Positions 10,831 through 57,215 of a stretch of DNA of 64,000 nt are shown in pieces. The stretch's first letter is position 1, and each line of letters opens with the position of its first letter. The DNA lies in NCBI GenBank assembly GCA_963971425.1, contig OZ020517.1, forward strand, positions 13,828,501-13,892,500, written 5' to 3'. The notes beneath the pieces were generated by a model, which had not been told where the DNA came from, did not search any database, and saw only the letters and a list, made by a program, of their open reading frames with translations. Made by a program: the position numbers and the translations under genes. The DNA comes from Bryoerythrophyllum caledonicum. Taxonomy: Eukaryota > Streptophyta > Bryopsida > Pottiales > Pottiaceae.

Positions 10831-11256
10831 CCGACAACACGGCTGATACTGTACCATTTCTAATATATGTTAATAAAAAAAAACCAAAAAACCAAAAAAA
10901 AACCCATGTTCTTCAGGAAAAACAAACAAATTAATAAAAAAATAAAATATATAATATTTTTAAAAATATAAATAAAGAAATAATAGAAAAAAAATACAAA
11001 TAATAATAATAATAATAAAACCAAACATGAAAAAAAAATACAAAAACAAACACAAAAATAAATACAAAAAGACAACAACAAACAAAAATACAAATAAAAT
11101 AAACAAAAACATAAAGACTTTAACCAATAAAAACAAAAACAAAACAAAAACAAATAATTAAAAACAATCCTAAACTAAAAGAAACTAGTAGCAAAAATAA
11201 AATAAACAAAATCAAAATCAAAATGCTTAAAAATATAATAAACAAAATGAAACTAG

Positions 11257-11865
11257 CAACAAAATATCTTGAAACTAGCTTCCCTAGTACTACTAAGTGG
11301 AGATATAGAAACCAATCCGGGACCCATGCCTAATGTACTAAAAAGACATCCCACAACACATAAGAAAAACGCCAAAATATACTTAATACCAAATACCATT
11401 AAACTACAACCGAAATACAAACACATTGCTAAGACATTTGCACCCCTTCTAAAATCCACACATATACTACATCAACTACATAACACAACACACCCAAATA
11501 TTGCCCAATATATACAACAAAAAAACATGCATCCACCAACACATATTTTATATACTCTAGTAATTACCATCCACCCAAACATTGACGAATGTAACCGTCT
11601 TCTAAATCTACAAAACCCAATTATAATTTCATGGACTAACATGCTATTAAAAACCTTATCAAACTTACAAAATCTACCCGAAAGACATATTCATATTCCA
11701 CATCCCTATACAAAATTTCTTGAAGAAAACCTAAGTATCATAAAACATGGGAATTCAATACATAAAGAATTATACGACTTCTTACATAGTCAAACCATAC
11801 TGCCTTCAAACGACACAATCAAACAAAAAACTCCTTACCTTCCTAACAAACTAATTAACCAATGA
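11257..11865 (+). pseudogene. LINE ORF N-terminal region with 2A-like motif
   Basis: This frame opens after a TAG at 11254 and runs about 200 codons. It starts with a short hydrophobic run (LASLVLLS), then GDIETNPGP, then MPNVLKRHPT and a region rich in His, Asn, Pro and Thr with no known domain. The nearest ATG (11247) is in another frame, so one indel separates the start from the 2A motif. Homology to 4412-4666 shows that the region after the 2A is a real conserved part of the family. The frame ends at a TGA before the APE domain, which continues in another frame at 11957. Confidence 0.65.
11299..11325 (+). other. 2A-like ribosome-skipping motif (GDIETNPGP)
   Basis: The codons read G-D-I-E-T-N-P-G-P, preceded by LVLLS. 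This fits the 2A consensus D(V/I)E.NPG|P with the usual upstream hydrophobic residues. In 2A peptides the ribosome skips the final Gly-Pro bond, releasing the upstream peptide. 2A motifs at the N-terminus are known in trypanosome L1Tc/Ingi and several animal LINE clades. The related copy at 4333-4359 has lost the essential G and P. Confidence 0.8.
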
Positions 11866-11956
11866 CTAAAATATTTCGACCCCATACCAGAATATACCCA
11901 TCTACCCCCCCAACCCTCTTACTTTCTTCCACAGATAAAAAATATTAGTTCAAACA

Positions 11957-12678
11957 ATGAAAAACACAAACATAATTTCATGGAATGCTTCATCTCTAAA
12001 CACCGCTCTTCCTAGTTTACAAACCTTGGTCACACATACAAACACACCACCAGCAGTCATAGTTATACAAGAAACAAAAATAACAGCCACAAAATCTACA
12101 AAATACATACAATACATATTTCAAGACTACAAACTTATCTCTTAATAACACACATGCACTAACAAGATGCATCCAACAATGTAGACCATACACACCGGGC
12201 CGCGGTGGCCTCCTTACACTAATACACAAAAATACGCTTTCCTGGGCAACATTAAAAAAATTCATACCCCTATGCACATATCTCCCTACCTTCAAATAAT
12301 TAAAATTGCTAATCAACCACTACAATCATGGTTAATCTTTCAAATATATATGCCCTCCCACCCCGAAGATACTAGATTTACTATAGACATACAAAAAAAT
12401 ATTACATCTCAAATAAATAATAACACTAATCACACTTACTTGTTATGTGGAGACTTCAACAGAGATATAGTTTTAATTGGTTGACAAAACGGAAACCATA
12501 ACACCCCTCTTCAAACCATAGACTATCAATGGCGCCACTTCACAGAAAACCTAAACTTCACCTACATATATATTGATACACAATACTCCAGACAAGGCGG
12601 ATATAACTACAGTGATTGGAGCCTAATAGACGGCTTTTATATAAGCACAAACAATACTACACAATACACCTCTACAAC
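11957..12678 (+). pseudogene. LINE APE endonuclease domain, main part
   Basis: Apurinic/apyrimidinic-type endonuclease that nicks target DNA to prime reverse transcription. Visible motifs are NIISWNASSLNTALPSLQ (N-terminal Asn motif), VIVIQETKI (catalytic QE, about 12065-12085) and LLCGDFNRD (GDFN, about 12435-12460). The SDHLPI motif lies on the far side of element E at about 26190. A stop after KLIS (about 12143) and later frame changes break the reading. The insertion of element E at 12679 separates the last motif. Confidence 0.75.
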
Positions 12679-13014
12679 TGTGGGAATACGTTCCCACAAG
12701 GTGCCGGAAGTTAACCTAAAAATTTGGCAAAAACAAAAAAAATTAATTAAGGAGTTACAATAGTCTGTGCTAGAATAAACCCTGTAGTCAGTTCGTAAAA
12801 ATAAAGACGGATGAACCCGGTTGAAATCCCTAAGTGATCCTAATGCTGCTAAAAACAGACGGCCGGAGTAGTTATCGGAACTCCGGGAAAGGTTGTCATC
12901 CGGTGCTGTCACCTTCAGCCGTACTTTTTCCAGAAGCCGGTCTATCAGCCAGCTACAAAAGGCCGTGGCACAAGGGAAACCTCTTTCTTTTTCTGTCTTC
13001 TTCACGTGTTGCGC

Positions 13015-14771
13015 TGTCCTGATGGAAATTCTTCCATCATGTACATACAAGTATTAGTCTTTATATGTGTGGATTTTAATAAGTAAGGAGTTGGGGTAAA
13101 AGGGGTTGGTCGTGGTAAGAACCACGGTTTGAGGATTTGGGCAGGTGTTAGCATTTAGGTGCTGCACCGTTCTTGTCACTGCTCAGGGGGGTAGGTAGCG
13201 GGTTGACTGGTATTTTTCCTGCCTCACTAGCGAGCCAAGCCGTGGGCCGCCGAACCACTCGACGGGCTCGATTGGGTTCGAACCCGGACCGGCGGCAGCC
13301 ATTGACCACGACATTTCCAGCCAACCAAGTCCACGACTTGGCGATCAGGTTGTGCGAATCAACACCTTTATACGTCCGTACCATCAGCTATCTTACGATA
13401 AGTTTTATTTTTTATTTTTATTTAGTTATTTTTTTTATTTTACTTATCTTGTTGGTTGGAAGGTCTAAGTTTTTAGTCTTCCAATAAATAAAAGACTAGG
13501 GGATTTTATGTGGTTGAAAGTGGAAAGGATAAGAAAGTAATGAAGTACCTTGTGGGGTACTTTGGGTAGGGTGACATGGGCTGGAGTGCCCACGTCCACT
13601 TGAGGTGGAAAAGTGGGAAAAGAGATTCCTTAGAGTGTGTGTGTGTGTGTGCGGGAGAGAGAGCAAGGGTTTGGAGCAGAACTTTGACTGTATGTAGCTC
13701 GGCGAATTTTGTTCGCATGGAATTGAAAATTTGAGGGTTTGTTCTTTGTCTTCAGAGATTTCTATACTCGTTTCAAAAATTGAATTCGGAGTTATGTAGC
13801 AAAAGTTATGAAGGTTTGTTTTTCTGTGAAAACCCGAGGCCATCCATTGAGAGGCAGAGGTTTGACAAGCTATAACTTTTGCTGTAGTTCTTAGTTTTCT
13901 TTGAGATTTGGAGGGTGTATGCGTCTCTATCTTAGCTTTCTAGAAAGATATCACAATTGAAATTCAGAGTTGTGAGCAAGAAGTTATAGAGATCTGAATG
14001 AATAGGGGTAGGCAGAACTTTGATTGTCCATAACTTTCGGACAGTAGTTTAGATTGACTTGAAATTTGGAGGAGTGTTAGTTGTCTGAATTAGCTTTCCA
14101 GAGAGCTATTACACTTAGTATTTGAAGTTTTGAGTCATCTATGTCACTTGTTTGAAGGTTACAGCCTTGGTGAAACTTTTCCATTGTGTTTTTGAACACT
14201 TCTTTTGAGTTTCTTAGTGTTTTTGAACACTTGAAGACTTTGGAGTTGAAGGATGGAGGAATTGAAGACTTGAGGATTGACTTGAAGAGAAGAGAAGATG
14301 GAGACAAGTGTGTTGTGGCTTGTGGTCCGATTTCTTTTTTTGTGATTCCAAGCCAGCTTTGGAGGCTAGTTGTATTTCAATTCTGTTCTTGTAAACTCTG
14401 TTCCGGCGAAGTGGGGTTAATTGCCCACACGGTCGTGTTTATGTCGTTCCCACCGGTGAGGCACGTTTGCTGGTCACCGTGGGTTTGAATTTTAGGAGCC
14501 AATCTTTCGGACGATTTCAGCTTGTGGTCTGGCCGTCCCGTTTTATCCGTCCGAGGCCGTGGTTTCTTATCACCCACCTTTACCCTTAACCCTTTGGAGC
14601 CACCACATGATAGGCCAACGGGGAGGAGTTTGAAGACTGAAGACTGAAGACTGAAGACTAGAGACCGAAGACCTGAAGATTTGAAGATACGATTGGTTTC
14701 CCGAGCAAACAATCTCCAGTCGCAGCCAGATTCCCTGCGAATTCTCAAGGCGCTCCCCTCTCTACACGACA
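13015..14771 (+). repeat. 5' LTR of the Gypsy element
   Basis: 1757 bp, TGTCCTGATGG...CTACACGACA. It starts with a short hairpin (GATGGAA-ATTC-TTCCATC) and contains an antisense tRNA-like segment (13155-13350), a (GT)n/(GA)n tract near 13640-13670, and three degenerate units around AGCTTTC.AGA.AG.TAT (about 13930-14110). A run of GAAGACT repeats lies at about 14634-14690. The short open frames in it are duplicated exactly in the 3' LTR and are not genes. Confidence 0.95.
13155..13350 (-). other. tRNA-like module (A/B-box-like) in LTR, antisense
   Basis: On the minus strand an A-box-like ACTTGGTTGGCTGG is followed about 40 nt later by GGTTCGAACCC, an exact match to the core tRNA B-box (it is palindromic), then further shared sequence ending CCTGAGCAGTGACAAGA. 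The solo LTR at 27691-29798 has a similar module at the equivalent place and orientation. It is not a functional tRNA, since no acceptor stem is evident. Confidence 0.5.
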
Positions 14772-14790
14772 TTTGGTGCTTCCACTGAGA
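14772..14790 (+). other. candidate primer-binding site
   Basis: Directly after the 5' LTR lies TTTGGTGCTTCCACTGAGA. TGG followed by TGCTTCCACT would pair with a tRNA 3' end finishing in AGCACCA. I cannot name the tRNA from memory. Confidence 0.5.
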
Positions 14791-14820
14791 GAGCTTTGAG
14801 GCGACTTGCGTGGTTTTGCT

Positions 14821-15525
14821 ATGGGAGACGCTGATGGGATCGCTGGTGGTGGAGGAAGAGGCACCGGTGGAGTCCAAATGCCTATGGAGGACATTTTAGG
14901 GACGTTGGCCCTATTCATGGAACAACATAGAGCAAATCAAGGTGGGCAAGGTGCCACTAAGGCTCTTAAAGCTGTTGTTTCCAAGATTGGAAGGTTCGAT
15001 GGCAAGAACATCTCTAAGTTCTTGCGAACCTACGTGTGTGAGATGGAAGTGCATCAGGTTGATGACAATCAAATGATGCACATCTTTGGTATGGCGGTTG
15101 TACCTGACATTCGCGACCGGGTGCAAGAGATCCGCGAGATGGTCATCTCATGGCCAAACTTTGCTGAGCGGCTCCGAGATGAATACTTTGATGAAGACTC
15201 TGAGAGAATGACAAAGTGGTCATTTCTTGAATGGGTGGAGCAACGGCCTGGGAATTCGATGGGTCCCAACGAGCTGTTGAGAGACTTTGAGAAGAAGTTC
15301 AGTCAACTACCCATGGCAGAGAGGCGCCTTTTGGATTCTAGGAAGGCAGAGCTTTTTCTCCAAGCAACAGATGCTGCACTTGAAGACAAGCTGCTTCTAC
15401 TCCTTGGAGATCGTACGACAGAAGGGGGCTTTACCAATGAATGGAGGAGGGTTGAAGAAACGGTGATTCTCTTGGCCAAACAACGGCGTGTGAGGTCAAG
15501 AGGCGTTGAAGTGGAGCCTATTTAG
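14821..15525 (+). CDS. gag: Gypsy gag, first part (capsid-like)
   Basis: The first ATG of the frame is at 14821 (the frame is open slightly upstream only with non-ATG codons). It starts MGDADGIAGGGGRGTGG and is followed by a helical region (SKIGRFDGKNISKFLRTYV ... WPNFAERLRDEYFDED) typical of Gypsy capsid proteins, which assemble the virus-like particle. It ends at TAG (15523-15525). The next codons continue in the same frame for another 581 codons that include the nucleocapsid knuckle and protease, so the stop falls inside what should be one polyprotein. The stop is either a fresh nonsense mutation or is read through. Confidence 0.88.
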   Translation: MGDADGIAGGGGRGTGGVQMPMEDILGTLALFMEQHRANQGGQGATKALKAVVSKIGRFDGKNISKFLRTYVCEMEVHQVDDNQMMHIFGMAVVPDIRDRVQEIREMVISWPNFAERLRDEYFDEDSERMTKWSFLEWVEQRPGNSMGPNELLRDFEKKFSQLPMAERRLLDSRKAELFLQATDAALEDKLLLLLGDRTTEGGFTNEWRRVEETVILLAKQRRVRSRGVEVEPI

Positions 15526-17268
15526 ACACCGAAGTCTCTTAAGGTGTCTTTTGCCCCAACACCTTCGACAACTTCGGGACCTACTTTGAAAACCACTAAG
15601 ACCACCGAAGGAAATGCCCTCGAAGAACTTATTAAGGGTTTTCGAGAGCTAAGGGTGGAATTTACTGAGTTGAAGAAGGCTAGGGGAGCTTCTTCTTCCC
15701 AACCATCCGATGGTGCGAGAAAATATTCAAGGAGGTGTGTTTGGTGTGATGAGGAGACTGAGCACAATCTCAGAGGCTGTGAATCGTATGAAGAGGCACT
15801 CAAGAATGTTCATGTCTACTACAAAGATGGGAAGATTCACGATGCCTCAACAAACTCTCCATTGGGGACCAATTTTGGAAGAGGTGGAATGAGGAAGCTC
15901 ATGGAAGAGAAGATGGCAAGATCCAGCTACGTACAAGTGCACGAAGCTGATACTTACCACGTTCAAGTCGAGCACCATTCAGATAAAATTTTATCTGTTC
16001 AAACTCAAATATTAATGAAGAGAGGAGCTCAAGCCATCAGAAATGCAACTGGATGGAAAGATCCAGTTGATGCAAATAGCATCAGGGCATTTATGTATGA
16101 AGAAAAGGACAATGATGAGCTCCGCGAGGCCTCTGTTGAAGAAAAACGTGTAAGACTTGATGCTGACGATGGTGTTGAGCCAGAAGCAAAGATAAGATCT
16201 CCAGTGCAGAATGAGCCTGCAAAGGAGATGAGAAAGAGGGTTCCTACACGTTCAAAGCCGACGGACCCTAGTACTGTGCGCCCTAGTGATGCACCGTTAC
16301 CAAAGGAATGGTGGGAGAAGAATAAAGAGAAAGAGAAGGATGAGCCAAACAGACATTCCAGTGATAGCAAAAGAGGAGAAGAAAAAGGAGACTCTACCAA
16401 GGTGAAGGGAAAAATGCCTGCTTATAAGCTCCAGTCAGACATTGAGACCTCTATTGACTTGAAAGGGGTATTGGAGGAAAGGATCTTGGATGCCAAGATC
16501 GAATTTACATTGAGAGAAGCACTTGGCATAGCCAAGAAAGATTTCCATGAGTTAATCATTGACATTATCAAGAGGAAGAGGCAGATGACAGCTGAGGCTG
16601 TGATGGTCAGAGCTTTAGATACTCACATGACCGAAGATGAAGAGACAGAGATTGGTGAGGTATTTGCTATGATGGGTGAGCCAATAGGTCGAGAAGAAGA
16701 AGTTTCCAAGGAGGAAGCACGAATTTTTCAATTCTCTTATGATCTTCCCTATATGAAAGAAAATGAAGAGAAGATTGAGTTCGATCTACCATTTTGGGCT
16801 AGGGCCACTACTGAAACGAAGATAAAGCTCGGAGGGATCGATGACCACGTTTTAGCCCTTGTTGATCATGGTTCAGAGATTAACATAATATCTCGAAATG
16901 TCTATGAGAAGGGCAAATGGCCAATCGACACGGATCATGGTTGGGTCATGAGAGCAGCTAATAGTGGACGGACTCGGTTGCATGGTGCTTGCCCTGCAGT
17001 ACTCACGAAGATTGGAGATGTAGAGGTTGAACAAAATTTCTTTGTTCAAAATGTTAGCGCCTATCCGATAATTTTGGGCCAACCATTTATCACTGCTTCA
17101 CGAATGGAGACCAAGGTGTTGGATGACGGGTCTCATTATGCCCGTATCCGAAGTGTTGATGGAAAGAGGTCAGTGCAGTTCTTAACGGTGAGGCCTGAGA
17201 ATGAGAGGCATCGACTTCAACTCAGAGAAATCCCTCTACCAACTTCTTCGAACTTCTCGGATTTCTAG
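15526..17268 (+). CDS. pro: Gypsy gag second part: nucleocapsid knuckle and aspartic protease
   Basis: In frame with gag after a single TAG; it has no ATG of its own at the start. A zinc-knuckle-like CVWCDEETEHNLRGC (C-x2-C-x5-H-x4-C, about 15735-15780) is followed by a charged linker with many K/E. The protease follows near 16850-17090: ALVDHGSEINIIS holds the catalytic Asp, but reads DHG where most retroviral-type proteases have DTG or DSG, and AYPIILGQPF matches the second conserved region. It ends at TAG 17266-17268. The pol frame overlaps its end in the -1 frame (open from about 17202). Confidence 0.88.
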   Translation, partial: TPKSLKVSFAPTPSTTSGPTLKTTKTTEGNALEELIKGFRELRVEFTELKKARGASSSQPSDGARKYSRRCVWCDEETEHNLRGCESYEEALKNVHVYYKDGKIHDASTNSPLGTNFGRGGMRKLMEEKMARSSYVQVHEADTYHVQVEHHSDKILSVQTQILMKRGAQAIRNATGWKDPVDANSIRAFMYEEKDNDELREASVEEKRVRLDADDGVEPEAKIRSPVQNEPAKEMRKRVPTRSKPTDPSTVRPSDAPLPKEWWEKNKEKEKDEPNRHSSDSKRGEEKGDSTKVKGKMPAYKLQSDIETSIDLKGVLEERILDAKIEFTLREALGIAKKDFHELIIDIIKRKRQMTAEAVMVRALDTHMTEDEETEIGEVFAMMGEPIGREEEVSKEEARIFQFSYDLPYMKENEEKIEFDLPFWARATTETKIKLGGIDDHVLALVDHGSEINIISRNVYEKGKWPIDTDHGWVMRAANSGRTRLHGACPAVLTKIGDVEVEQNFFVQNVSAYPIILGQPFITASRMETKVLDDGSHYARIRSVDGKRSVQFLTVRPENERHRLQLREIPLPTSSNFSDF

Positions 17269-17282
17269 AGGGCACACGTGGG

Positions 17283-20200
17283 ATGTGGGGATCCACGGGT
17301 GCTAAGGGAACTAAGACTGGTAGATTCCCCAATGTACATACTAGTGTTAAGTGTGGATTTTTAAGTGTGACAAAGTGTGGCTTTGAAAGATTTACGGGTG
17401 TCAAAGACTTGGACCCTGTATGTAGAAAGCTTGTGAAAAAGATGGAGAAAAATCTTAAAAAGATGAAGGTTGTAGAAGGAGATGAAAGCATTTCTGGTAT
17501 TTACGAAGAAAATGGAATGCCAGATGATATCTTGCAGATTTTGCAAGATCTAGAGGCAGATAAGGATGAAGAGAAGACTCATTGCATTGTCAATGTCCAT
17601 ACAAGTTCAATGTATCATGAGATTTCAACAGCAATGACAAGGCTGTGTGACTTGAAAATTGATGAACAAAGGCTGGAGGCTGCAGTTTATACAAAATATA
17701 AAACTGTGGCCAAGAAAGTGAAGCCAGTGGCTACTCAGCTACCATCTGATACTGATGATCATATCAAACAAGCCGAGAAAGAGCCAAGTTTGAGAGAAAC
17801 AAGAAGGATTGGACACAAGTTCAGCAAAGAGACTTTGACAAACTTGAAGATTGGAGGAGATAATTTCTTGACTGAGCCGGAGAAGAAGAAATTTCAGGAC
17901 ATGCTTTCTATGCATGGAAAAGCCTTTGCTTCTTCGCCAGATGAGATTGGGTGCGTTCAACCAAGTATTGTGGCACCAATGGTTATTTTTACAGTGCCAC
18001 ATATACCATGGGATTTGAAGCCAATTCCAGTTCCTCGAGCTCTGCTTCCAAAGCTTGTGGAGTTGCTTAAGGAAAAGACACGCATGGGCATACTTGAGCC
18101 TTCGATGGCTCCATATTCCAACCGATGGTTTACAGTACCAAAGAAATCGGGAGCATTGAGGTTCATTCAAGATATGCAGCCAGCAAACGGAGTGACAATC
18201 AGAAACAAAGGCTCAGGCCCTATTGTTGATGAAGTAGCTGAAGCATTTGCGGTGCATGCAATTTATTCCATTGGAGATCTATACTCTGGTTATGATCAAT
18301 TTCAATTAGCTGCTGAGAGCAGAGATTTAACAACCATGAAAACTCCACTTGGATTAGTACGCATGTGTACATTGCCTCAAGGTGCTACCAACTCGGTGGC
18401 ACATATGCAGAGCGCCATGAATCAAATCCTAAGAGACTTTGTGCCTCAGAAAACCATACCTTTTGTGGATGACATTCCCATGAAGGGGTGTGAGGAAAAA
18501 GATAAAGACTTAACCATCCAAGATGATGGTTGCAGAGCCTTTGTAAGTAATCATATTGAAGATGTGGCCAAAATCTTGAGCAAATTGGAGGAGGTCAATT
18601 TGACTCTCTCGATTGAGAAGTCCAAGTTTGGGGTTGATGAGATTTTGGTGGTTGGACACTTGTGTAGTTCTTATGGAAGAGAACCTAACCCTGAGAAGGT
18701 GGATGCTATTGGAAGAATGAAGGCCTGTAGCAATGTCACTGAAGTAAGGAGGTTTTTAGGAGCCTGTGTCTTCTACCAAATTTGGATCCCTCATTTTGCT
18801 CATATATCAGAACCTCTTTACAAGCTATTGCGCAAGAGGAACAAATTTGTTTGGCAATGTGAGCAAGATCAAGCTATGATAGAGCTGAAGAGAATCCTGG
18901 AGTCACCATCGGTTCTTAAACAAGTGAGTTATACTTGTGGAAGACCGGTGATTGTAACTGTTGATACGAGTCCTATTGCAATTGGATGGGCTGTTGGACA
19001 AGATGATGAAGAAGGGAAGAGATTTGCTATCCGATTTGGAGCAAGGATCTTGACAGAGCGACAGAGGGCTTATCCACAAGTTAAAAGAGAACTCTGGGGC
19101 GCCCTCACAGCTCTAAAGGCGGACAGAAACTACTTGATTGGTGCGGAAGTAGTTTTAGAAACCGACTGCTTGCCTTTGCTGGAGATGATAGCAAATTGTT
19201 CTTCACCAGACATTGCAATGTTGCGTTGGATAGCCTACATCAAGTCTTTGAATCCTGTTCTAGTTCACATTGAAGGCAAAAAGAATTCAGTTGCCGATAT
19301 GTTGTCTAGAGCAAGGTATTTCAATGAAGATGAGATGATGGCTCACGAACATGGTGAAGAATTGTTACACGGAGCCTATGTGATGAACATAGATAATGAA
19401 AGTTCGTCCAATAGAGCATTACCTTTCAAGGATGAACTGTACGAAGGAAAACTGAGAGATATTGGGCTTTACTTGAAAACAATGGAGCGGCAAGGAAGTT
19501 GGACGGATAAGACATTCAAACACATTAGACATCAGTCTTATGGATATCTGTTGAAGGATGGATTTCTATGGAAGAGGGCAAAAAGAGCTGGTGAAGTGCC
19601 ATTAAGAGTGGTGGGAGACTCTTTAACCAAGACCCAAATTTTACAAGAGTTTCATGATACACTTTGGGCCGGTCACAGAGGCATTTGGGCCACCTACACG
19701 AAGGTCAAGGAGCGGTATTGGTGGAAGGGACTATACAAAGATGTTGAGGAGTTTGTAGCCTCTTGTGTGGTGTGTCAGTTACAATCGAAGGTCCGGCACA
19801 GAGATGAACTGCATCCCACTTATCCTATTGCAATCCATTTTCAATGGATGATCGATTTGGTTGCCATGCCAAATGCAATGTGGGGGATGAAGTACCTTGT
19901 TTTGGCCCGAGAAGAGCTCTCAAACTTTGTTGAAGGAAGAGCTTTGAGGACCAAGACAACAGAAAATGTATGCCGATTTATACTTGAAGACATTTTTAGT
20001 CGGTATGGGAGCATTGGCCGGATGAGAGCTGACAGAGGAGAATTGAACGCCACTGAAGCCAAAGAATTCTTCAAGCGATATGGTGTGCAGTTGAAGCTGA
20101 CAACAGCTTACAACCCTGAGGCTAATGGCAAGATTGAGAGGGGACATCCTCCAATCATTCATGCTTTAGTCAAGGCTTGCAGAGGAAAGCCTAGCTTGTG

Positions 20201-20837: not shown

Positions 20838-20865
20838 GCTTGGCACATACCAGAGGATGTGCAGG

Positions 20866-20880
20866 TTTAGAGAGGGTGAA
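20866..20880 (+). other. candidate polypurine tract
   Basis: A purine-rich run (AGAGAGGGTGAA) directly precedes the 3' LTR at 20881. It is the expected place for plus-strand priming; the single T weakens the match. Confidence 0.5.
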
Positions 20881-22637: not shown

Positions 22638-22815
22638 GCGCTTCCGCTTCCGCGATCTCTCTCTCTCTCTCTCTCTCCCATTTTCCTAACTGCTAGCCAT
22701 TAGGGTTTGTTAGCTTAGACGGTTAGAATAGACGTGTGTCGGTTAAGGAGGGTTTTTGTGAGGACGGTGCGTGCATGGACAACATCAAGAGAAGGTGAGG
22801 AACTAGGCAGACTAG

Positions 22816-24872
22816 ATGAAGACGGTCCCCATGGCTAAGAAGAAGAAAACAGGCAGAGATGAGCGAGGGAAGCGAGACGAAGAGCCGACCGTTTTGCTTC
22901 CACCCTTGAGGAAGGTGCTGCCGGAAATCCCTACATATCCGGACGAATACAACCTTCTGAAGGAGAGTTTGAAGACCATAGGCTATGACGGATTTTTTGA
23001 CATGGCCTGGGGCATCCGCGAGGAAGTGTACGTCCAAGAGCTGATAGGAACGCCGGACCCGAAGTACGAGGGGATGCTGCGGGCCTAATCGGAACTCTGG
23101 GGAGTTCTGGAGTGGATGCAGACTTACGACTTCCGGGCCAGGAGCACCAAGGTGGTAGAACGGCGAGACGAGTTCCTGGCGGAGGAATTCAAGGGGAAAC
23201 CCGACCTAAAGGAGGGGTACATCTAACAGGACTGAAGGCACCAGGATGCCCAGTTGGTGCTTGGATTTCTAAACCCTATCTTCCATCCAGAAAAGCCGAA
23301 GCGGCTGGTGTCGAAGTGCGCGTGCACTTTCCTCGGAGCACTCTAGGGAAGGATACTGGTGAATTGGGGCACCCTCATGAGCGAGATGATCAATCGGCTG
23401 GTGGCCAACCTCCAAAAGATGAAGAAATCGACCTCCTCTCTGGCACATTTCTACTGTCATTACCAACAACTCACTCAGGCAAAGCAGAGGCTGTATGACG
23501 AAGTCCTCAACTTCTTGAAGTAAGGAGGTGAGGAGACAGAAGAAGAGTCCGGAGAGGCAGTCGAACCAGGGCCGGAACCAGCAACAACGGACACTCCAGA
23601 AGAAGACCGGAGGGCCCGGAAGAGAGCTCGAGACAAGCAGCCGGCATCGGAGAGCTCGGACAACAGTAGTTCGTCGAGGTCATCCGGTGCAGACGAGTCC
23701 GAGCCATCTGAGGAAGCCAGCCGGAAAGAAGAGGAAGCTCGACCCGGAAGACCTCAAGGGCTAGTTGAAAAAGATCGATGACATTCTGCGCGGGCTAATC
23801 TGGAGAGTGGAAACTCTCAAGGAGCTCAACTTCATCGTGACAACTGGCGTGGAACGGGTCTTCCGGAGTCTGGGTTGCGACCGGTTGGAAGACGCGATCC
23901 TCCCGGTGGAAGATCCCAGAGCAAGGAGATGTCCCTAAAGGAAGTGTACCTACAAGTCTCCACCCTGTACAAATCTAACACGGAGTTGAAGAAGAAGGTA
24001 ACACACTTGCGACTTAAGACAACCCTAGCAGTGGTGGGCCAGAAACAGGCGGAGGCAAGAGCCAACGCATCGGCAACCACCTTGACAGGAGTCCGGGAGG
24101 CCTTGAACTTTCTGATGGACACGGTCAACCGAGCAAGCTCTTAACCGAACTGGTAGAGGAGGAGTAGAAGGTGACCAAAACCAACATCTTCTGGTTCTTC
24201 CTCGATCAAGCAGAGAAGATGGTCCAGACCAAGGAGTAGATGCAACTTCTAGTGAGCAAAATCACTCTGGAGGAGCCGGAAAATCAGGCGACTCAAGTAC
24301 CCGAAGACTTTATGACCCCGGATCGGACCGCGGCTCCTCCGGAACTGCCACAGTCTAAGCCGGCCCCAACTCCAAGTACCTTAGCGAATCCGAAAGACCT
24401 CAATACTCTGTCACCTCGAACACTTGCAGAAGGCATCGTATCTCCCAACTCCAGTACGGGTGAGATACTAAAGAATCTTCTGGATCTGCTGACGTCTTCG
24501 ACAATGCGCTTGCCGGATCCTCCATAAGAAGCAGACCCCCGGGCACCTCCTAAGTCCGTATCCAGGAGGCGGCCACAAGGACTAGGGAGTCCCTCCGGAA
24601 GTTACAGGGACTTGATCCAGGAGGTCAAACCAACGTCCGAGCCGGAACGACCGACACCTCCAGTTCCGAAAGTTGCGTCGGAAAAGCAACCTCCTCCTCC
24701 GGATTCCAGAGCTCCGATGGCAAGGATTTCTCTAGCGGTTGAACCGTCGACTTGGAAGGGCAACTCTTCTTCGGCAACATTGAAGAAGGCAATGGGTAAG
24801 CAACGGGTTGCTGTGGAGATCTCCCCTTCGCGCAGAAGTGGGAGAAATCGGGCACCAGATGCCCCGTCCTAG
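22816..24872 (+). pseudogene. element E protein, copy 1
   Basis: Starts MKTVPMAKKKKTGRDERGKR, shortly after a (CT)n tract. The basic start could be a nuclear localisation signal. A globular region follows (YNLLKESLKTIGYDGFFDMA ... REEVYVQELIGTPDPKYEG), then an acidic Ser-rich linker, a coiled-coil-like segment (about 23900-24130) and a Pro/Ser-rich tail. It ends at TAG 24870-24872. Stops (such as TAA near 23087 and 23520) and frame changes break it. I do not recognise the family. Three copies in this window share the same layout, so it was a real gene in the parent element, perhaps gag-like. Confidence 0.6.
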
Positions 24873-26163
24873 GTTAGTGATTAGATGTAGCATTTTTGGG
24901 CTTTAATTCTAGACCGGCAGCGATTAACGATGGGGCTCGAGTGCACCCGACTGCTGATAGGATCAACTGCCAGTTTTGTAGCTTAAGGTAGTAAAATCCG
25001 GAGTCCGGAAACTTTTCCGAGATTTTAGGATCTGAGTTCCAATCTAGAACTTTTCCGGATTTCTTGAATCTTTCAGATAAGATCTTGCGGGTTTCGAGCA
25101 GATGGGTAGAAGGCTAAGTTTAGGAAGAACTTAGTTAGTACTTAGTATTGGAGTTTAGGAAAAACTCCTCATCTTGTTTTCTTGCGTTGAATATACTCCA
25201 GACCTTCTTACTAGATTTGCTTCCTAGTGTCATTGGTGTGGAGTGTCGTCTTTGTAAGTAACGGATCTGTTCTTGTATGTATGGTTGTAAAAACAATTTT
25301 CCGGAGTAGATCAATAACTTGTTTGCTTGGAGAGAAACCGGCCAGGACCCGCATTGGGAAATCGCCTGGGAGAGCTGGAGGACTATTGCAGACCTAGTGT
25401 TTCTGGTAGTCTCTAGGGTCCGGAAGTAGCTAGGAGGGGAAGAGATGAACTGCAGAGGTGTTCCTGGTAATCTCGAGGACACGGAACAATCCATGTTAAC
25501 GTGGACTCCGGTTGAGGCCGGAGTTTACCCCCAAGATAGGAAAAAGCTTGATGTGTAGGTCTAGACGGAGAACTCTTAGTAAGAGGTAACACCTTCCCGA
25601 AGAACCGCAATCATACTTAACGGAATGTCGTGGTAATCCGGACTTGTCTCTGTGTGACCGCGTCCGGAAGGCCATCCGGATGTTGTAAGAGTCTAAGTCT
25701 AACAACAACAATCAATCACCGGTTAGCGGAGTAGAGAGAGTGGGTGTCCAGCCACTATAAGCTCCGGGGCAGTGGGTGTCTAGCCACTTAATGTCACAAG
25801 ACAGTGGGGAATCCGGCCACTTATACAAAATAGGATTAGTGGCCTTCCGGTCACTCGTTTAAACCTTCCGGAAGACTCTTTGAGGGGGACCAAAGAATAA
25901 TCAACCTACCCACTGGTTGACCGGAAACCAGTTCCCGCAATCATTATACAAATTTTGGACTCCGGAAGGACCTGGATCCGGAATACATGAGTGAATAGAA
26001 TAGCTAATCCATGAACAATTGAGTTGGTAAGTTTAGTTTTGTGGGATATTCGGAGAAGAACACTAGGTCTCTGTGGGAACGAAACCGGAGCGGTTACTTT
26101 GGAAGCATTTAGTGATGATTAGGTGCATTTTGGAGGAATACTGACTTTATGAACTACAACAAC

Positions 26164-27690
26164 AACAAACAAAGACATTAATCTCAACTCGGATCATTTG
26201 CCTATACAACTCCACATCCCAAGTAACATTCTAATTAGTTGTACTCCTATAACCACAAACAATGATACTATACGAATACTAAACCCCATCCCAAAAGATT
26301 ACTTAGAAAAATTCAACACAAAGTTCTTTGAAAAAAAACTCCATACAAATTAACTCCCTCATTAACATCCTAGAAAATAATAACCAACTTTCTCAAACAC
26401 AATGGCACGAAACATGCGACATCCTAGACACACTCATTAATAATATCTCCGATATATTAGAACAAGCTTGTAAAGTCCCACCAATACCAAAAATGACAAA
26501 CCGAACATCACAACAAGGCGGTTATCTACCCCGCAAACTCTCTAAAACATGGAAACAACACTTAGCTACATATCATATAATACAAAAGACTATTAGAATC
26601 GTAAAAAATAACTCACAATGGCATAACCACCCCATATGTAATGAATTACTAACTCTGCACAATACCCAAATCCCTGCTCCACCTCCCCTAGGCCTACTCC
26701 ACGATACATGGATAAAAGATATTGCACTAATTGCAAAAAATGCCAATGACAAGCCGAGAAAGTAACTACAAGATACTCCCAAGATAATATTAAAAAATCC
26801 ATCTCAAAATATAGACAATTATACAAAACTAGCCCTACCAAAATAGATAGGAAAGTTTAAAAAATCCGAATCCCCAACACTAGATTGTATCACTGACCAA
26901 TATAATAACATTCTAACTAGCCCGGAAGACATTGCAAATGAAATATCCAAGTTCCAACAAACAAAAAAATAATAGACCCACAATACCAACATGTAACTAC
27001 CAACCACAACACTTAATTGAAAACACATGTACAGTACGCCAATATCCATGGCATGATCTGGATGGCCTTACCTTAGGCAAACGAGGCAAACCTGAAACTC
27101 CACTACATACATACTTCAATAGAGCCATATCCGACACATGTCTCTGCAACCTCGGAAATGACAAAGCCCCAAGGCCAGACCGTATACCAAATTCAATACT
27201 CAAAAACAAGCCCAAAAGATTTCATAAATTACTATCTCAAATCTTCTTTCATTGTTATAAACAAAAACAATTACCAGCCTCATGGAAAACAAGTGTAACA
27301 ATATTACTGTACAGAAAAGGAGATCCTACAATATTATCAAATCATAGACCAATTGCATTAGCCAACACAATATATAAACTATACACCAGTACACTGACCT
27401 CAATATTATCCTCATATGGTGAAAAGTTTAGAATCCTACACGATAGTCAAGAATGATTTAGAGCAGAGAGAAGTACCTCTAGACAAATACAAACCATAAT
27501 AGCGGCACTAGAAGACTCACGATTCACAAATCAAGATATATATATATTTTTTATATGTAGACTTCGAAAACGCCTTTGACTCTATTGACCACGCTCGACT
27601 ACTAGCGATAATGACTGATATTGGGTAATCTAAAGATCCAACTACACTAGTTGGAAATATCTACTCCCAATCATCTACTGACTACAAAAG
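26164..27690 (+). pseudogene. LINE: end of APE domain and first half of reverse transcriptase
   Basis: The LINE resumes after element E. SDHLPIQLHI (about 26190) is the last APE motif. A linker follows (26328-26765), then RT: GNDKAPRPDRIPNSILKNKP (about 27158-27215), ASWKTSVTILLYRKGD, HRPIALANTIYKLY, DSQEGFRAERST-like (with a TGA at about 27455), and YVDFENAFDSIDHARLLAI (catalytic Asp, about 27555-27610). It is cut by a solo-LTR-like insertion at 27691 in the segment that reads LVGNIYSQSSTDYK. Several stops and frame changes are present. Confidence 0.8.
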
Positions 27691-29798
27691 TGAGCACTTT
27701 GAAAAGACTAAGTTGTTAAAGGGAAGTTGACCTACGAACTCACTTTCTCATAAACCCTAGAAACCCTAATGAAACCCTGATTTGTTCAAAAATCCTTATA
27801 AAACCTCAAATCACGTCGGATTTTATTGGCTAGGTCATAGTTTTTACATGGCAAAGTCTCTCCAACTCAATGTGACCTCAAAACCTCTACCAACTCCTCA
27901 AACCTTAATTGTCTCTAAGCTCTAACTCCAAGTTCCAAGTTGCAAGAGTGAGAGAGAGAGAGAGAGCTGTCAAGCTCTCTCTCCATGTGCACCAAACCCT
28001 AACGGAAGTTATCCGGCGGAAGAACACTGGGTTGGATGAAAGTCATCTAGATGCCTAGATTCATCCAACTGACGGATGAAACTCGTCAGGACGGAAATCA
28101 TCTGCCTGGCCAGGTTCATCCACTAGAGAGCTAAAAAACTCATCCGGAGTCGAAAAATGAAAATTACTACCTTGGTCCTCTAATCCTGGTTCTCTGCTGT
28201 CGTGGAGAGAGAATTTGCCTTGGGAAAACGCAGGGTTCTTGGCTGCTACCAATTTCTGTAAAGGAAGAAGGGAGGTGTAATAAAGGCGATCTTCATTGGT
28301 GATAAATTTGAAATAATACAAAGTAAGACTTAGATCTTCAATAAAAGTAAACTTCTTGACTCATCTTGACAAACCCTCGCAAGTGATTAAACAAGTAGTT
28401 TGAATGAACTTGGGGCAGCAGAATCTTCTCTCATTCTATCAAGCTCTACCACTTCATACTTAACTTTATATGAGCATGCAATAGCTTCCTAGAAAGCTAA
28501 TACAGTAAGGCTCATATGTACAAAATTTAAATATAAAAAGATCTACACAAATGCTTCTATGAGGAATCAAAGTCACTGCTCTAATTTGCTCAAGGCAGCT
28601 GACTCCTTTCCACTGAATCTAGCATAACTCTCTCAAACCAACTCCAATCCACTTACGTAATAGCTTTTTGAAAAGCTAACAACAAGATCAACAAGTGATA
28701 AAATTTTCAATCCTACTGACTCTATATGCAATGAATTATAGTTGCTCAAAGTCACTGCTTGAAACTTGTGGAAAACAACCCGCTCCTCCGAGAACACTCC
28801 TTCAAATGATCAAGTGCTACGACTCCATAACAACTCGGATTTGAGCTTATGATAGCTCATTGGAAAGCTAATACAATCAACACTATACACACAAAGATTC
28901 ATTATCTCACTCTTTGTACACAAGTTTCTACATGGAATCAAAGTTACTGCTCTCGAAAATTCATGGCAGCAGTACCCTCGTTTATTCAAATCCACACCAC
29001 AGCTTCTACATAACTCCGATTGGAGTGTATGATAGCTTGTTGAAAAGCTATTAACAAGTTCTACAACACGCTTAAAATTGACATCAAAACTCACAAAACT
29101 CTACCTGTCCCACTTGAAAACCCGAGCGTCTTTTTATACTAAATGGAGGAGGCTTTGGCCGAGGGAGGAGGGAAGAAAAGTCAAGGGCCTAAATCAGCCC
29201 ATGCTTCTCTAGCCTTCCTTTTGACTCACCCATGGACACCAAAGTCTATTTACCTCCAAATCTTATCCAAATCTTCCCACATAAGCCTAGCTTGACTTTT
29301 AATTTCCTAACCTATAACTCTACTACAAGTTGGCACTATATTTCTCCCCCTAAACTAACCCCCAAACTAAACATTTCTTATTTCTACTACAAACTATAAT
29401 ACCATAGCACTATGTTTAAGTTTTTTGATCATAGAAGAGTTAGAGAATAGCTTAAATATCATTAGAGCCAACGTATTGCCATCGACCGCGGCTTAGTTCG
29501 GCTGGCTATGCTTTTCGTTGCACCTCGCCGGTCCGGGTTTGATTCCTGGGCTTGTCAGAGCGGCTGGCGCTCGCGTGGTCAGGGGACTGCTGGAATCAGC
29601 AGCAAATCTAGCTGGTGGATGCTCCTAAGCCCTGAGCTAGTGACAAGATGCAGAAAAGATCCTCTAAGATAAGCTTCTGGCCTGGTAGGGTAATTGAGGA
29701 AAACTTGTTTATTCTCCACAATTACCTTAATCAACTAAATTCCCCATTTTTCTTCTCAATCTTATTTTTTATATCATGAACTGTATCGCATCACGACA
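27691..29798 (-). mobile_element. solo-LTR-like insertion related to the Gypsy LTR
   Basis: About 2.1 kb interrupting the LINE RT. Read on the minus strand it starts TGTCGTGATGCG (Gypsy LTR: TGTCCTGATGGA), has the tRNA-like module at a comparable place, then degenerate units with TAGCTTT..A.AAGCTAT as in the Gypsy LTR, a (CT)n tract near 27950-27975, and ends ...AAGTGCTCA. There is no coding region. I do not see a target duplication, so the boundaries rest on the TG...CA ends and on where LINE similarity stops and resumes. Confidence 0.6.
29483..29660 (+). other. tRNA-like module of the solo LTR
   Basis: An A-box-like GGCTTAGTTCGGCTGGCTA (29490) is followed about 40 nt later by GGTTTGATTCC (29536), close to the tRNA B-box GGTTCGATTCC. 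After it come CCCTGAGCTAGTGACAAGA and related sequence, shared with the Gypsy LTR module. Read alone it looks like a tRNA-derived SINE head. The shared place in two LTRs argues that it is part of the LTR family. Confidence 0.55.
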
Positions 29799-31860
29799 CC
29801 GCTTAACATAAGCCTATTCCATTCATAGAGGAACTATACAAAGAGACACCCTAAATCCATACGTCTTCATCATATTTTTAGAATCACTACGTAGATGGCT
29901 AGAGCGAGGCAATAATGGATACACTTTTGGTACATCACAAATCACCATAAATTCCGCCGCCTACGCCGATGACTTTGCTACCATAACTAATAAAATAAAA
30001 TCATTACAAACAAAAATTGATAAAATCGATAGATATTGTAAATGGACTGGTATGGACGTAGGCGTCCCAAAATGCGCTGCTACTGGGTGCCCAAGTAAAT
30101 CCAAAATGAATCCAACTGCATTTAAAGCTCTAATGCAAGCTTCCAATATTAACTACCGTCGCCAACCAATCCCCGTACTTCACCAAAATGAATCATATGT
30201 ATACCTAGGCACAAATCTTGTTCCCTCTCTAAACTGGAAAATCCAAATTTACACCACGATCACAAAACTCATCAAACAATATAAAGAATAAACAACATGC
30301 CCAACGACTATGAAACAAAAAATTAAAATGGTTGATACCATAATACGCCCAGGTGTAGCATACAGCTTCTACATTGTAATATACTCTATGCCAGCTATCA
30401 AAAAATTTGATCAAAAGATTATAGCCATACAAAACCCATTTGTCGTATGCCAAAAAGCATTTCAAACACAATAACCCAACTCCCACATAACCTATTTGGA
30501 CTCTAAGCTTTCTCCTTCAAAAATGCCTATCTTCGATGTATAGGGGAACAATTACAAAATGCCCTAAATGACAAAGATAGGCTCGGAAAAATATGTAGTG
30601 TACTAACTGAATATGTACTTGCTCAATATGGAGGTGCCAAAAATATACCTCGAATAAAAAAAACGGATTATATAAGATCACCAATAACTCGTACACTTTT
30701 CTTATTCAAAGACGTAGCCAAAGTTCACCTTAGAAGTACACTTCCAAATTTCCTCTCTGATCGAACACCATTAGAAGTCTCTTGGTGTCAAGAAGCACAA
30801 AACCATAACACACTCAATGCCCAACTCTCCCAAAAGCTTTTACAAAAACTACTCTCAAAAAATATTTTTGAATTAAAGCAAATCACTTTACCAAACTGCA
30901 CACACATCATGAATAATGAGGACTTCAAAGACTTCCACTTCACCCCATCTAAACTAATTAAGAGTGCCCTAAATGTTGCAAAACAACTTTTTTGCCACCC
31001 AACGTGCCTCACCACATGTGCTATCCCTTGCAACATACACTTATACTCTCACATACTCCAAGATCCATTCATCACCATCAATAACAATAGCCTCCCAAGA
31101 ACTACCCTACCACCAATTCAACCTTCTAACCCCTTACACCTACACCACCCCCGCCCCCCAACATAAATCCCCAAAAATTCCACCATATATCCCATTAATA
31201 GCATCATAAGCCATAAATATACAACACCTAGATACCAACAATATACAAAATACCTATACAAGATATTTATGCCAATGGCAACACAACAACAACAACACAT
31301 TCAACAAATGGCTTCCTCAAAGAAACCTCTTTCCAAGACACGACAATAATACTTCCACATATAACACCAAAAAATTTAAACAATACTATCAAAAAATTAA
31401 AAATAAATTTTCCTCGGAAATCATCCAAGCTCACCACCCTCAAGAACAATTATAAGACTCAAGATCCGTAACTCCACCCATAAATATTCCACTCCTAAAC
31501 ATTTATACAACGGAATGTAACCCCGAAATTGATATTCTCACACTCTCAAACACAATTAAAATAGAAAGAAACCAAGCCCACCTTTATGAAGAAAATGGCC
31601 GACACTTACACACTATTCCCACAACTAGACTCCAATGGCTATGGAACCAATACAATATGAAACTACAAACCACTACAAACATCGAACCAACAACCCAACC
31701 ATTTGAAACTGAACTAATTTGGCTATATCAAAGATATAAATACCGCATTCCAAAAAATAATCCCCTCAAAAATGCACAGCTCACAATATCCACACTCATT
31801 CTAGACTCATTAATCTCAACCTTTAACATCAAACAATCATACTTTTCTTCTCCCGTTACA
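29799..31860 (+). pseudogene. LINE: second half of reverse transcriptase and thumb/linker
   Basis: RT resumes with a segment like AYSIHRGTIQRDTLNPYVFI. The catalytic YADD lies in SAAYADDFATIT (about 29955-29985), followed by KIDRYCKWTGMDVGVPKCAA and SYVYLGTNLVPSLNWKIQI (about 30196-30255). Beyond is a long linker (30290-31860) with Asn/Thr/Pro-rich stretches, LQWLWNQYN and ELIWLYQRYKYRIPKNNPLK. That linker is also present at 50000-51600 in the other LINE copy. Broken by many stops. Confidence 0.8.
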
Positions 31861-32388
31861 TGTTCCACCAAACTAAAAAAATTCTATTCACCATTTTAAA
31901 GAGATAAAATATTTGGCTCCCAAGGAATGGCCTTTGACTATAAATGGGCCGGTAATGGTATAGCTCACCTTCACAATGATGAAGAAACTCAACAAGTACT
32001 ACACTGGGCCCGCCTTGCAGCCAAAAATGACCCACACTACACCTTTACACTCATTATCACATTGGACAAAAATTGGTACCAAAAATTTAACCAACATTCA
32101 AACCCATTTACAGACTCCCATATCATTGCATTATTTGTAGCAGACTCAATTCCATACGAAGAGCCGACTATTCCACCTGAGTTAAAAAAGCCCCGAGCTG
32201 AACCATCCACATTACAAATAATATGTGTCGACCACCAAAATCAAACCCTTGGCACCCTAGAACAGCTTGCCAAACTCACCTCCATAGCAAATACTCAAAT
32301 ACCTATATTCAAAAATGGCCCCACCATCAACTATACAAACCCCCGTAAACCGAAGCAAAAAATAGTCAAAACTAAACTACATCAATAA
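31861..32388 (+). pseudogene. LINE: conserved extra domain between RT and RNase H, perhaps methyltransferase-like
   Basis: About 170 residues, almost all open (31927-32388). It begins with SSPVTCSTKLKKFYSPF, then FGSQGMAFDYKWAGNGIAHL, WARLAAKNDP, FTLIITLDKNWYQKF, FTDSHIIALF and YEEPTIPPELKKPRAEPS. A second LINE copy (52010-52200 and 55819-56030) keeps the same pattern (YDHKWTGNGIVHHHN, WARLAAKN). The order F.S.F...FGS...W.G.G, helix, then strand plus W is reminiscent of PCIF1-type adenine methyltransferase folds, but the NPPF-type catalytic motif is not visible. Function unassigned. Confidence 0.5.
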
Positions 32389-32449
32389 TACATTAGATTA
32401 CCTAGTAATACCTCCACCCCTTCCAAACTACCAAACCCCAACCATACCA

Positions 32450-32912
32450 AAATTTAACCCGACATATAGCTACTATACCAATGGATCCTTCAAACCGCCA
32501 GAACAAATTAGCCCGAGAAATTGGCGCAAAGAAAAAGCGGGCTATGGCATATATAATCCTATCAAAGAAATCAAATTAGCCAAAAGACTCCATGGACTAC
32601 AAAATATCCTTAGAGCAGAACTTATGGCCATACACAAAACACTACAAATTATCACAACAAAATACAACAATGAACCTGCACACATATTCACCAAATGTAT
32701 CAATGCACTATATCTACTAAACACCCAAATAACACACCCTACCCTCCACAATAGCCACCCCGACCAAACTATATTAATGTCAATGGTCCTAATGTTACAA
32801 AATTGAACACAAATGACAATCCTTCACAAAGTTAGAGCCCATGCCAATATCGTTGGAAATGAACAAGCACATAAACTAGCAAAAGAGGACTGCGAAAAAA
32901 TCACATAAAAAT
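32450..32912 (+). pseudogene. LINE RNase H domain
   Basis: It degrades the RNA strand after reverse transcription. SYYTNGSFKPP stands where TDGS is expected (D to N), NILRAELMAIHK keeps the Glu, and FTKCINALYLL stands where another copy (39400-39697, minus) has FTDCINVLYLL. RAHANIVGNEQAHKLAK has lost the last Asp. The catalytic set is therefore broken here but can be read from the other copies. Confidence 0.75.
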
Positions 32913-33149
32913 GCCAAAGACTCATACAAACATGCACATGCTACCCCATACTACTTCCAAAAAGATGATTGGCCTTCTAAAGAAGACACCCCCGATAAAG
33001 GCCAAGTTAGATTCTTGAACAAATATCTCAAGAAACAAGACCTCTATAACAACCTTGACACAATCACAGAAAACTTCCCTAGTATAGGAAAAATGGACTG
33101 GCAACAACAAAATAGTCAATGAACTTTTTACAAATTTCTGGAAGAATCC

Positions 33150-33930
33150 TATCATCTCCGACTCACAAATAACATGCCTCATCAAATTCCGTACCGGTCA
33201 ATATATGGGAAACGTGCGAAAACAACTCTTTTATGGAATAGAAAGGTTCCCGTCTATAACATGTCCCATATGCACTTCCACAGACCCCGACACATGGCTC
33301 CATGTTCTACTTAAATGCCAAAACCATCACATACACTCCTTAATTGTCAAAAGACATAACTAAGCGGTATGGAAAATTCAAAAACTAATTACCTCCCATA
33401 ACAAATCACGATGCTTTATCCTCATGAATGCCGGTACCTTTAATAACAACCCACAAGAAAATACGGTCCCCCCTTGGCTACTCCCATGTACATGTGTTAC
33501 TCAATGTTGTCATTGCAATACTAGACTCAAACCAGACATACTTTGCGTTCGAGGCCTACCATACAATGACGCCGCACCCGACCACATTAACCAAGACTAT
33601 ATCATTCAATTCATTGAATTCACATATTGTATGATAGATTCTCCCCAGAAACAATTGAAAATTAAATGAAAAAATACCAACCCCTTATTGATGACATTAT
33701 TGCCCTGGGATGGAAAGTGGACCCCCTTATTGTAATCACAGCCGGCGCCCATGCCACCACCTTTATCCCATCTATAAAAATCCTTGAAGATACCTTTAAA
33801 ATTCCATTGAAATAATTTCTCACACTTTCAACAATATTAACACCATTGTCATTCAACATGCTATGTCCATCCTACTACACAAACGCAAAATTGAAAACAA
33901 CCAAGCCCTCCCCAACACACAAAATCCTCC
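33150..33930 (+). pseudogene. LINE C-terminal restriction-like endonuclease (CCHC + PD-(D/E)XK)
   Basis: CPICTSTDPDTWLHVLLKCQ (about 33262-33320) is a C-x2-C...H-x4-C zinc motif. KRHN follows, then LKPDILCVRG (about 33524-33550) and FIEFTYC (about 33610-33630), then KKYQPLIDDIIALGWKVDP. In R2-type LINEs the same order (CCHC, R-H/N, KPD, D/E) forms the restriction-like endonuclease. The copy at 38560-39130 keeps RHNKAVWKIRKLI. Here frameshifts lie near 33635 and 33668. With the APE domain upstream, the element would have had two endonucleases. Confidence 0.75.
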
Positions 33931-34234
33931 ATAGCATTACCCCTCACTTACTCACCTTTGAAACTTCAAAAACCTCCCACATTGAAAACACACTCCCCCC
34001 AATGTTACCCTCCAATTTTTCCCTCCCCTCTTCTTTTCTTTCCTTTCCCCCTTTTCCTTTTGATACTTTTTGGATATTGATGGCTACATGTGTACTTTGA
34101 TTACTTGTGTTTTCTGGTTACTTGATACATAGTGTCTACCCTCGAGAGGGAAAAGTAGTTCCATGTCTGGTGAGCATGGTCTTAGTGGTAGAACAAATAG
34201 ACACTTCATTCATTCCGGCCCCTTAGGGACCGAC
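33931..34234 (+). other. LINE 3' UTR
   Basis: Untranslated tail ending TCTACCCTCGAGAGGG...TTCATTCATTCCGGCCCC. It is matched at 39290-39396 by another copy, which fixes the LINE 3' end. There is no poly(A) tract. Element E copy 2 begins directly after it. Confidence 0.65.
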
Positions 34235-38069: not shown

Positions 38070-38270
38070 ATACCGGCGTTCTTCTTCTTCTTTGACAGGT
38101 ATGTTGTAATGAAAGATATACTTCTACTTGCCAAACCATGAGCCGGAACTCTAATTTTTTGGATTCTCATATTGCTATTAAAGTAAATAATTACATTCCA
38201 TTTGAAGAATTCCAAAATCAAACCTACATTGGCACTAGGTAGCAAACAAAGGCTTGTGACTTGTCCCTAC
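38070..38270. other. unassigned gap between element E and a LINE fragment
   Basis: Short AT-rich stretch with TTCTTCTTCTTCTTTGACAG at 38079. I see no gene. Confidence 0.4.
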
Positions 38271-45080: not shown

Positions 45081-45249
45081 ATGTTGGCAGCCATGGATTT
45101 TTTTTTAAAACTACATCACCAACACAAGACAACTCACAACACTACAAGGCATCGACACATGATGTAATGTTGGGAGCCATGGATTATTTTTTAAAACTAC
45201 ATCACCAACACAAGACAACTTACAGCACTACAAGGCATCGACACATGAA
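45081..45249. repeat. tandem duplication, 86-bp unit, two copies
   Basis: AATGTTGG.AGCCATGGATT begins at about 45081 and 45167, each followed by AAAACTACATCACCAACACAAGACAACT-type sequence. It is a diverged relative of the neighbouring 91-bp unit (shared ACATCA.CAACACAAG). Confidence 0.85.
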
Positions 45250-57170: not shown

Positions 57171-57215
57171 TAGTCCAACCATTCTAATGTAGTTCAATAT
57201 TATAATTTTTTTTTC

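Follow-up and report, generated by a model that had tools for sequence, protein, structure and literature searches.

Remains of a probable Dualen/RandI-type retrotransposon lineage with a 2A core and a PCIF1-like domain in a moss genome

Does a set of broken retrotransposon copies in a moss genome go back to one element that carried two endonucleases and a 2A motif? The question is raised by a 64,000-nucleotide stretch of Bryoerythrophyllum caledonicum (contig OZ020517.1, positions 13,828,501 to 13,892,500; the whole stretch is here called the window), in which a sequence-only reading had pieced together a long interspersed nuclear element (LINE) family with a 2A motif, an N-terminal region, an apurinic/apyrimidinic endonuclease (APE; QE, GDFN and SDH), a reverse transcriptase (RT; YADD), an extra domain, RNase H and a CCHC/KPD/EFT endonuclease. 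All of these parts were found in one copy, copy A, located on the + strand at ~11257-34232 (11257 being the start of the 2A open reading frame, ORF), in the order 2A, N-terminal region, APE, RT, thumb, extra (PCIF1-like) domain, RNase H and an endonuclease with CCHC, RHN, KPD and EFT motifs, collinear with related public proteins. The copy drawn earlier through 10860-34234 keeps approximately this extent, with the correction that two insertions (~12677-26159 and ~27700-29800) interrupt it besides stops and frameshifts; the other copies are also broken, and the earlier statement that all copies in the window are decayed holds.

Taken together with the working proposed below, the window copies are very probably the remains of one lineage of Dualen/RandI-type retrotransposons without long terminal repeats (non-LTR), elements reportedly treated by Kojima and Fujiwara in 2005. 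The observation made from the letters alone is confirmed and its interpretation is supported. In related elements the layout consists of one predicted ORF with a variable leader, 2A, N-terminal region, APE, RT, a PCIF1-derived methyltransferase fold, RNase H and an R2-type restriction-like endonuclease (RLE).

Two endonucleases in one reverse transcriptase lineage

The relatives comprise 148 distinct public proteins, found with the extra-domain region (5 proteins), the 2A-APE-RT pieces (24) and the RT of P0022 (best 120 of 178), P0022 itself being found twice. They include the green algae Pleodorina starrii (P0035) and Haematococcus lacustris (P0090, P0092, P0103), while P0028, from the catfish Hemibagrus guttatus, served as an outgroup. 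Purpose-built hidden Markov models (HMMs) were iterated on the 148 proteins with a threshold of E 1e-3. With some partial matches (e.g. P0141), they detected RT in 135 proteins and the PCIF1-like domain in 103; APE was recognised in 100, RNase H in 90 and RLE in 89. APE and RLE stand in a single ORF, flanking RT, the extra domain and RNase H, in 55 of the 148. Neither of the outcomes named in the sequence-only reading as refuting it was observed. Eight of these carry all six parts in the order 2A-APE-RT-PCIF-RNH-RLE (P0036, P0040, P0044, P0047, P0051, P0053, P0090 and P0103) and 47 have the same order without 2A; a further 27 proteins show RT-PCIF-RNH-RLE and 66 show other partial orders.

The closest relatives of the window family are partial ORFs, P0006 covering 2A, APE and the start of RT, and P0001 covering PCIF, RNase H and RLE; the contig given for each is 13377 bases long, possibly one and the same. 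P0002 holds the RT end, PCIF, RNase H and RLE within one ORF. RNase H, weak in broken copy A, is clear in these relatives (PF00075 E of 3.9e-13 in P0001 and 3.1e-15 in P0002). Elements with APE, RLE and RNase H are what the literature describes as Dualen/RandI (PMC4640811, PMC3636483), in agreement with the earlier statement that dual endonucleases are typical of this group, and both endonucleases occur in one element in copy A as in its relatives.

Phylogenetic trees were constructed from 66 and 41 of 133 prepared RT rows (rows no shorter than 215 residues, plus the window row and four structures), hand-picked for spread. In the 66-row tree, the window copy groups with seven relatives at a support of 99 in the Shimodaira-Hasegawa-like approximate likelihood ratio test, inside a 51-row clade (support 100) that contains the Pleodorina and Haematococcus rows, with R2 (99) and L1 outside it. 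The more careful 41-row tree recovered a 30-row Dualen-like clade including the window row (100/100), again with R2 (99/99) outside. Both trees flagged a long L1 branch and a few rows of odd composition, the window row not being among them. Among the volvocine rows in the clade, P0090 and P0103 match both APE and RLE, and P0035 and P0092 end before RLE; the RT of the window family thus groups with volvocine elements having both endonucleases. Placement with L1 or R2 was rejected, both lying outside this clade.

A match to the RLE HMM alone is no proof of an RLE, because the HMM also matches five of eleven outgroup LINE proteins (P0024, P0144, P0146, P0147 and P0148), and an alignment, a profile search of PDB and a fold comparison were therefore used. 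Eleven of 13 extracted segments were aligned (alignment A3), with C-C-H-C, R-H, P-D and E invariant across them. The A3 profile retrieved only R2 chains from PDB at E up to 1 (best 6.6e-8). The predicted model of the P0002 segment (predicted local distance difference test score, 85.6) gave R2 chains as its top seven Foldseek matches (2.6e-7 to 3.2e-4; next, 0.054). By aligned motifs and modelled fold, the last domain matches an R2-type RLE.

The PCIF1-like domain and the 2A signal

PCIF1/CAPAM is the cap-adenosine N6-methyltransferase that writes N6,2'-O-dimethyladenosine (m6Am) on capped mRNA. The extra domain, which the sequence-only reading had rightly seen and left unnamed, is, as judged from sequence profile and predicted methyltransferase fold, the methyltransferase domain of this enzyme: residues 394-667 of the P0001 model align to human PCIF1 417-668, and PF12237 is found in 43 of the 120 listed rows of the RT search (precomputed Pfam, among the matches listed). 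A separate feature of P0139 and P0143 is a cytosine DNA methyltransferase (DNMT) domain (PF00145, precomputed Pfam) beside the PCIF1-like one.

What the domain does is less certain. A relic or structural spacer that holds RT and RNase H apart appears rather unlikely: clade-wide identity is lower than in RT (mean 0.256 against 0.461 over 79 proteins) and the catalytic motif drifts, but the domain is detected in the 103 relatives counted above, P0001 shares 53-62% identity over it with three close relatives, and 11 columns are invariant in 16 diverse rows (alignment A2, 16 of 18 extracted segments). That the domain is an active cap-adenosine N6-methyltransferase across the clade, marking the element mRNA, is unlikely. 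The motif count covered 104 aligned stretches, eight of which were dropped, leaving 96 with the needed letters. Besides the PCIF1 fold, NPEY at the catalytic NPPF position (26/96 rows), [NDS]P.[FYW] there (28/96 rows) and SPL in the active-site loop (65/104 stretches) favour activity; against it, the catalytic place has NP in 33 rows but the full NPPF in not one of these, and all five relatives of the window family read HP[NH]x. A change of F to H in the NPPF of Drosophila PCIF1 could explain the absence of m6Am there, and m6Am is also absent in honey bees, which have NPPY, a change thought an unlikely cause (PMC9479742); mutants of PCIF1 at N553/F556 serve as inactive forms (PMC10544176). Catalysis has probably been lost in the window family, because its NPPF place reads HP[NH]x. 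A more tentative reading is that an ancient LINE clade captured a cap-adenosine methyltransferase, which would still be an active enzyme in NPEY branches and would read the cap or RNA without catalysis in the window's branch, in both cases serving to recognise the element mRNA at its 5' end; if true, the element would possess a built-in check for full length or cis-preference, linked to the freeing of the enzyme chain at 2A.

The strict 2A/StopGo core is (D/G/C/N)(V/I)ExNPGP (PMC12846837). The window 2A, DIETNPGP, fits it, and in copy A a frameshift separates it from APE. A 2A-like core occurs in 18 of the 148 relatives, ten of them found with the window's own sequence and eight with P0022, and the strict core in 16, whereas shuffled sets gave on average 0.003 matches each; because of the common ancestry of the relatives, the number of independent events is below 16. 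The signal is not special to the window family, since eight proteins from other branches also have it, including two Haematococcus proteins. Among the nine of the ten 2A-bearing proteins found by the window query that also match APE, APE starts 217 residues after 2A in seven, and 213 and 207 residues after it in two, while the stretch up to the 2A end ranges in length from 90 to 903 residues. Pairwise identity averages 0.26 and 0.36 before 2A (two bins of six and eight proteins) and 0.64 and 0.60 after it (eight proteins). The near-constant spacing and the break in conservation are the pattern expected if 2A defines where the mature enzyme begins, as we infer that it does. That the motifs are chance or non-functional is very improbable in view of the excess over shuffled sets, the position and the conservation break, although skipping is deduced from sequence and two motifs are off-consensus. 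In P0053, two 2A cores occur in one ORF, at residues 632-639 and 698-705, 66 residues apart.

In the proposed working, ribosomes would skip at 2A (LLQCGDIEPNPGP), freeing from the leader an enzyme chain that starts with the 2A proline. The target would be nicked by APE or RLE, or by one per strand, after which RT would make a copy of the element RNA through target-primed reverse transcription, with RNase H removing the RNA. The PCIF1-derived domain may act on or bind the element's own RNA, most simply near the 5' end; it may still methylate in NPEY branches and is most likely now a non-catalytic module in the window's branch.

Several points weigh against the Dualen-type reading and its working. 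The trees hold no Chlamydomonas Dualen, and I, R1, Ingi and CR1 are not included by name, so that the expected grouping of the RT with Dualen/RandI stands for volvocine Dualen-type elements (100/100, apart from R2 and L1) and not for the type Chlamydomonas elements. The expectation of one open frame is borne out by single ORFs in eight relatives of other branches; among the relatives found, the window's own branch has partial ORFs and no single ORF with all domains, the window copies themselves being broken. Precomputed Pfam gives PF12237 in four of the eight six-part ORFs (P0036, P0044, P0051 and P0053); in the other four the PCIF domain was assigned by the iterated HMM, and P0022 scores below the cut-off (19.0 bits, with 31.1 required). 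The cap is reportedly bound by a helical domain of PCIF1 (PMC10544176), and this part lies outside the modelled segment, the match covering human 417-668. [NDS]P.[FYW] is kept in just 28 of 96 rows, and neither the catalytic N nor the catalytic F of NPPF survives in the window's branch. Finally, P0018 and P0023 read GDIQPNPGP, outside the accepted 2A core.

The nesting of a 2A-bearing APE-type LINE and an RLE-type LINE, misread as one element, is scarcely credible and was rejected: copy A is indeed in pieces with two insertions, and the window's branch is known from partial ORFs, but the 55 single ORFs with both endonucleases in the same order contradict it for the clade, and P0001 and P0006 are both listed on a 13377-base contig.

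Features of the window and neighbouring elements

Beside copy A, the window contains six further LINE stretches, some of which are perhaps parts of one copy (Table 1). Pfam gave no match for the 2A piece or the RLE piece among the broken pieces of copy A; its matches to AbiJ_NTD4, Imm42, Pneumo_M2 and similar families on these pieces were all below cut-off and were rejected as chance.

Table 1. Positions of copy A and of the other LINE stretches in the window
Feature	Positions	Strand	Basis
2A-bearing ORF fragment, then N-terminal region of enzyme polyprotein	11257-11865	+	translation; relatives' 2A cores at near-constant distance before APE
2A core DIETNPGP (within LVLLSGDIETNPGP)	11302-11325	+	translation
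APE main part (QE, GDFN)	11954-12676	+	PF03372 E 2.5e-5 on 11954-12760, just above cut-off; collinear with P0006, P0011, P0018
Insertion: mobile element X carrying nested Ty3-like LTR element (~13000-22700)	12677-26159	+	junction sequences; other X copies
APE end (SDH 26189-26197) and APE-RT linker	26160-26762	+	translation; by-eye match to P0006, P0007
RT fingers and first palm part, partly frameshifted	26917-27700	+	RT row in trees; no Pfam match alone
Second insertion, boundaries approximate	27701-29800	+	collinearity with relatives breaks
RT palm, YADD at 29962-29973	29812-30288	+	PF00078 (RVT_1) E 4.1e-7
RT thumb/connector region	30507-31163	+	collinear by eye with P0001, P0002, P0008
PCIF1/CAPAM-like methyltransferase domain, altered catalytic motif (...GIAHLHND...), one stop	~31456-32260	+	PCIF1_WW (PF12237) E 1.3e-9
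RNase H, last part frameshifted (matched 32366-32803)	32366-32950	+	PF00075 E 0.02, below cut-off
R2-type RLE: CCHC, RHN, KPD, EFT; other frame after 33669	33088-~33910	+	relatives' profile and fold
3' untranslated region; element X starts ~34233	33911-34232	+	34115-34221 similar to 39273-39393
Second copy, 5' part: decayed 2A (GDMEKNPLT) and APE, same layout	4318-5628	+	67% nucleotide identity; translation
RLE region of another copy	3247-3937	-	sequence similarity within window
RLE end and 3' region of another copy	38579-39148	+	sequence similarity within window
RNase H fragment of another copy	39427-39786	-	sequence similarity within window
Third copy: RT palm to PCIF1-like domain; resumes ~55832-56034 beyond another X copy	49689-52194	+	similarity; translation
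RT fragment of another copy (60918-60405 with 57143-56629), interrupted by PIF1-helicase insert	56629-60918	-	sequence similarity within window

Element X is present in three copies (12677-26159, 34233-38070 and 52203-55820), each within or directly adjoining LINE sequence. The Ty3-like long terminal repeat (LTR) element nested in the first (~13000-22700) has identical repeat stretches (13015-13314 and 20881-21180, 100%), together with an ORF for DUF4100 and one for RT, RNase H and integrase (17283-20837). A perfect 364-base direct repeat of LINE sequence (56777-57140 and 60411-60774) flanks a 3270-base insert, which holds most of an 854-aa PIF1-like helicase ORF (57911-60475, - strand; PF05970 4.2e-61); the repeat is odd as a target duplication, and single-crossover integration of a LINE-bearing circle, or an assembly error, is possible. 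The window also contains a tandem array of about seven units with a period of ~91 bases (44610-45353), while a tRNA scan and an Rfam scan at gathering thresholds found nothing.

Among the relatives, precomputed Pfam lists further domains (among the matches listed): Josephin (PF02099) in the Dualen-like P0030, P0035, P0045, P0049, P0055, P0090, P0092 and P0103, OTU (PF02338) in P0036, and a PHD finger (PF00628) in ten Dualen-like proteins (P0050, P0053, P0055, P0057, P0068, P0094, P0117, P0132, P0133 and P0134). Josephin and OTU are cysteine-protease-type domains, and P0036, P0090 and P0103 also carry 2A. Six peptide patterns of P0001 had no match in viral contigs.

Comparison with known systems

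The window family resembles Dualen/RandI in having APE and RLE in one element together with RNase H, and differs, by descriptions of Dualen and not by its type sequences, in that its clade carries an in-frame 2A and a PCIF1-derived domain. Dualen families occur in all core-Reinhardtinia species examined (PMC8226300). The earlier claim that no described LINE combines all of these parts stands for 2A with dual endonucleases, not reported for Dualen in the literature found, and falls for RNase H with dual endonucleases, already known (PMC4640811). What appears new is the presence, in a LINE of Dualen type, of the PCIF1-like domain and 2A, neither of which is known to us for Dualen; among the matches listed from the open-access literature, neither is reported in Dualen, and subscription papers may hold earlier notice. 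The position of a PCIF1-derived domain between RT and RNase H over much of the clade suggests that a retrotransposon makes use of the mRNA cap or its marks. The clade's natural PCIF1 variants (NPEY, HP[NH]x) offer a way to probe the requirements of the catalytic motif. The clade also supplies retrotransposon 2A sequences from green algae and maps the domains of Dualen elements, including an extra region without a name in the literature found.

R2 shares the RLE fold and motifs and is the best RT match among solved structures, but it has an RLE and no APE, and its RTs lie outside the clade of the window family. L1Tc and the animal LINEs with 2A are, in contrast, reportedly APE-type, to judge from the title of Odon 2013. 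Like the window family, they carry 2A in frame with LINE proteins (PMC4981915). The likeness to PCIF1/CAPAM comprises the methyltransferase profile and fold, a FASPLN-like loop and an FGS/FGA motif; in contrast to that enzyme, the domain lies inside a retrotransposon polyprotein and has NPPF replaced by NPEY, HP[NH]x and others. Retrotransposons bearing DNMTs, described in the charophyte alga Klebsormidium (Gypsy) and in Symbiodinium (DIRS-like and, by implication, LINE; PMC5890265), are a precedent for methyltransferase capture, from which the window clade differs in that theirs are cytosine DNMTs.

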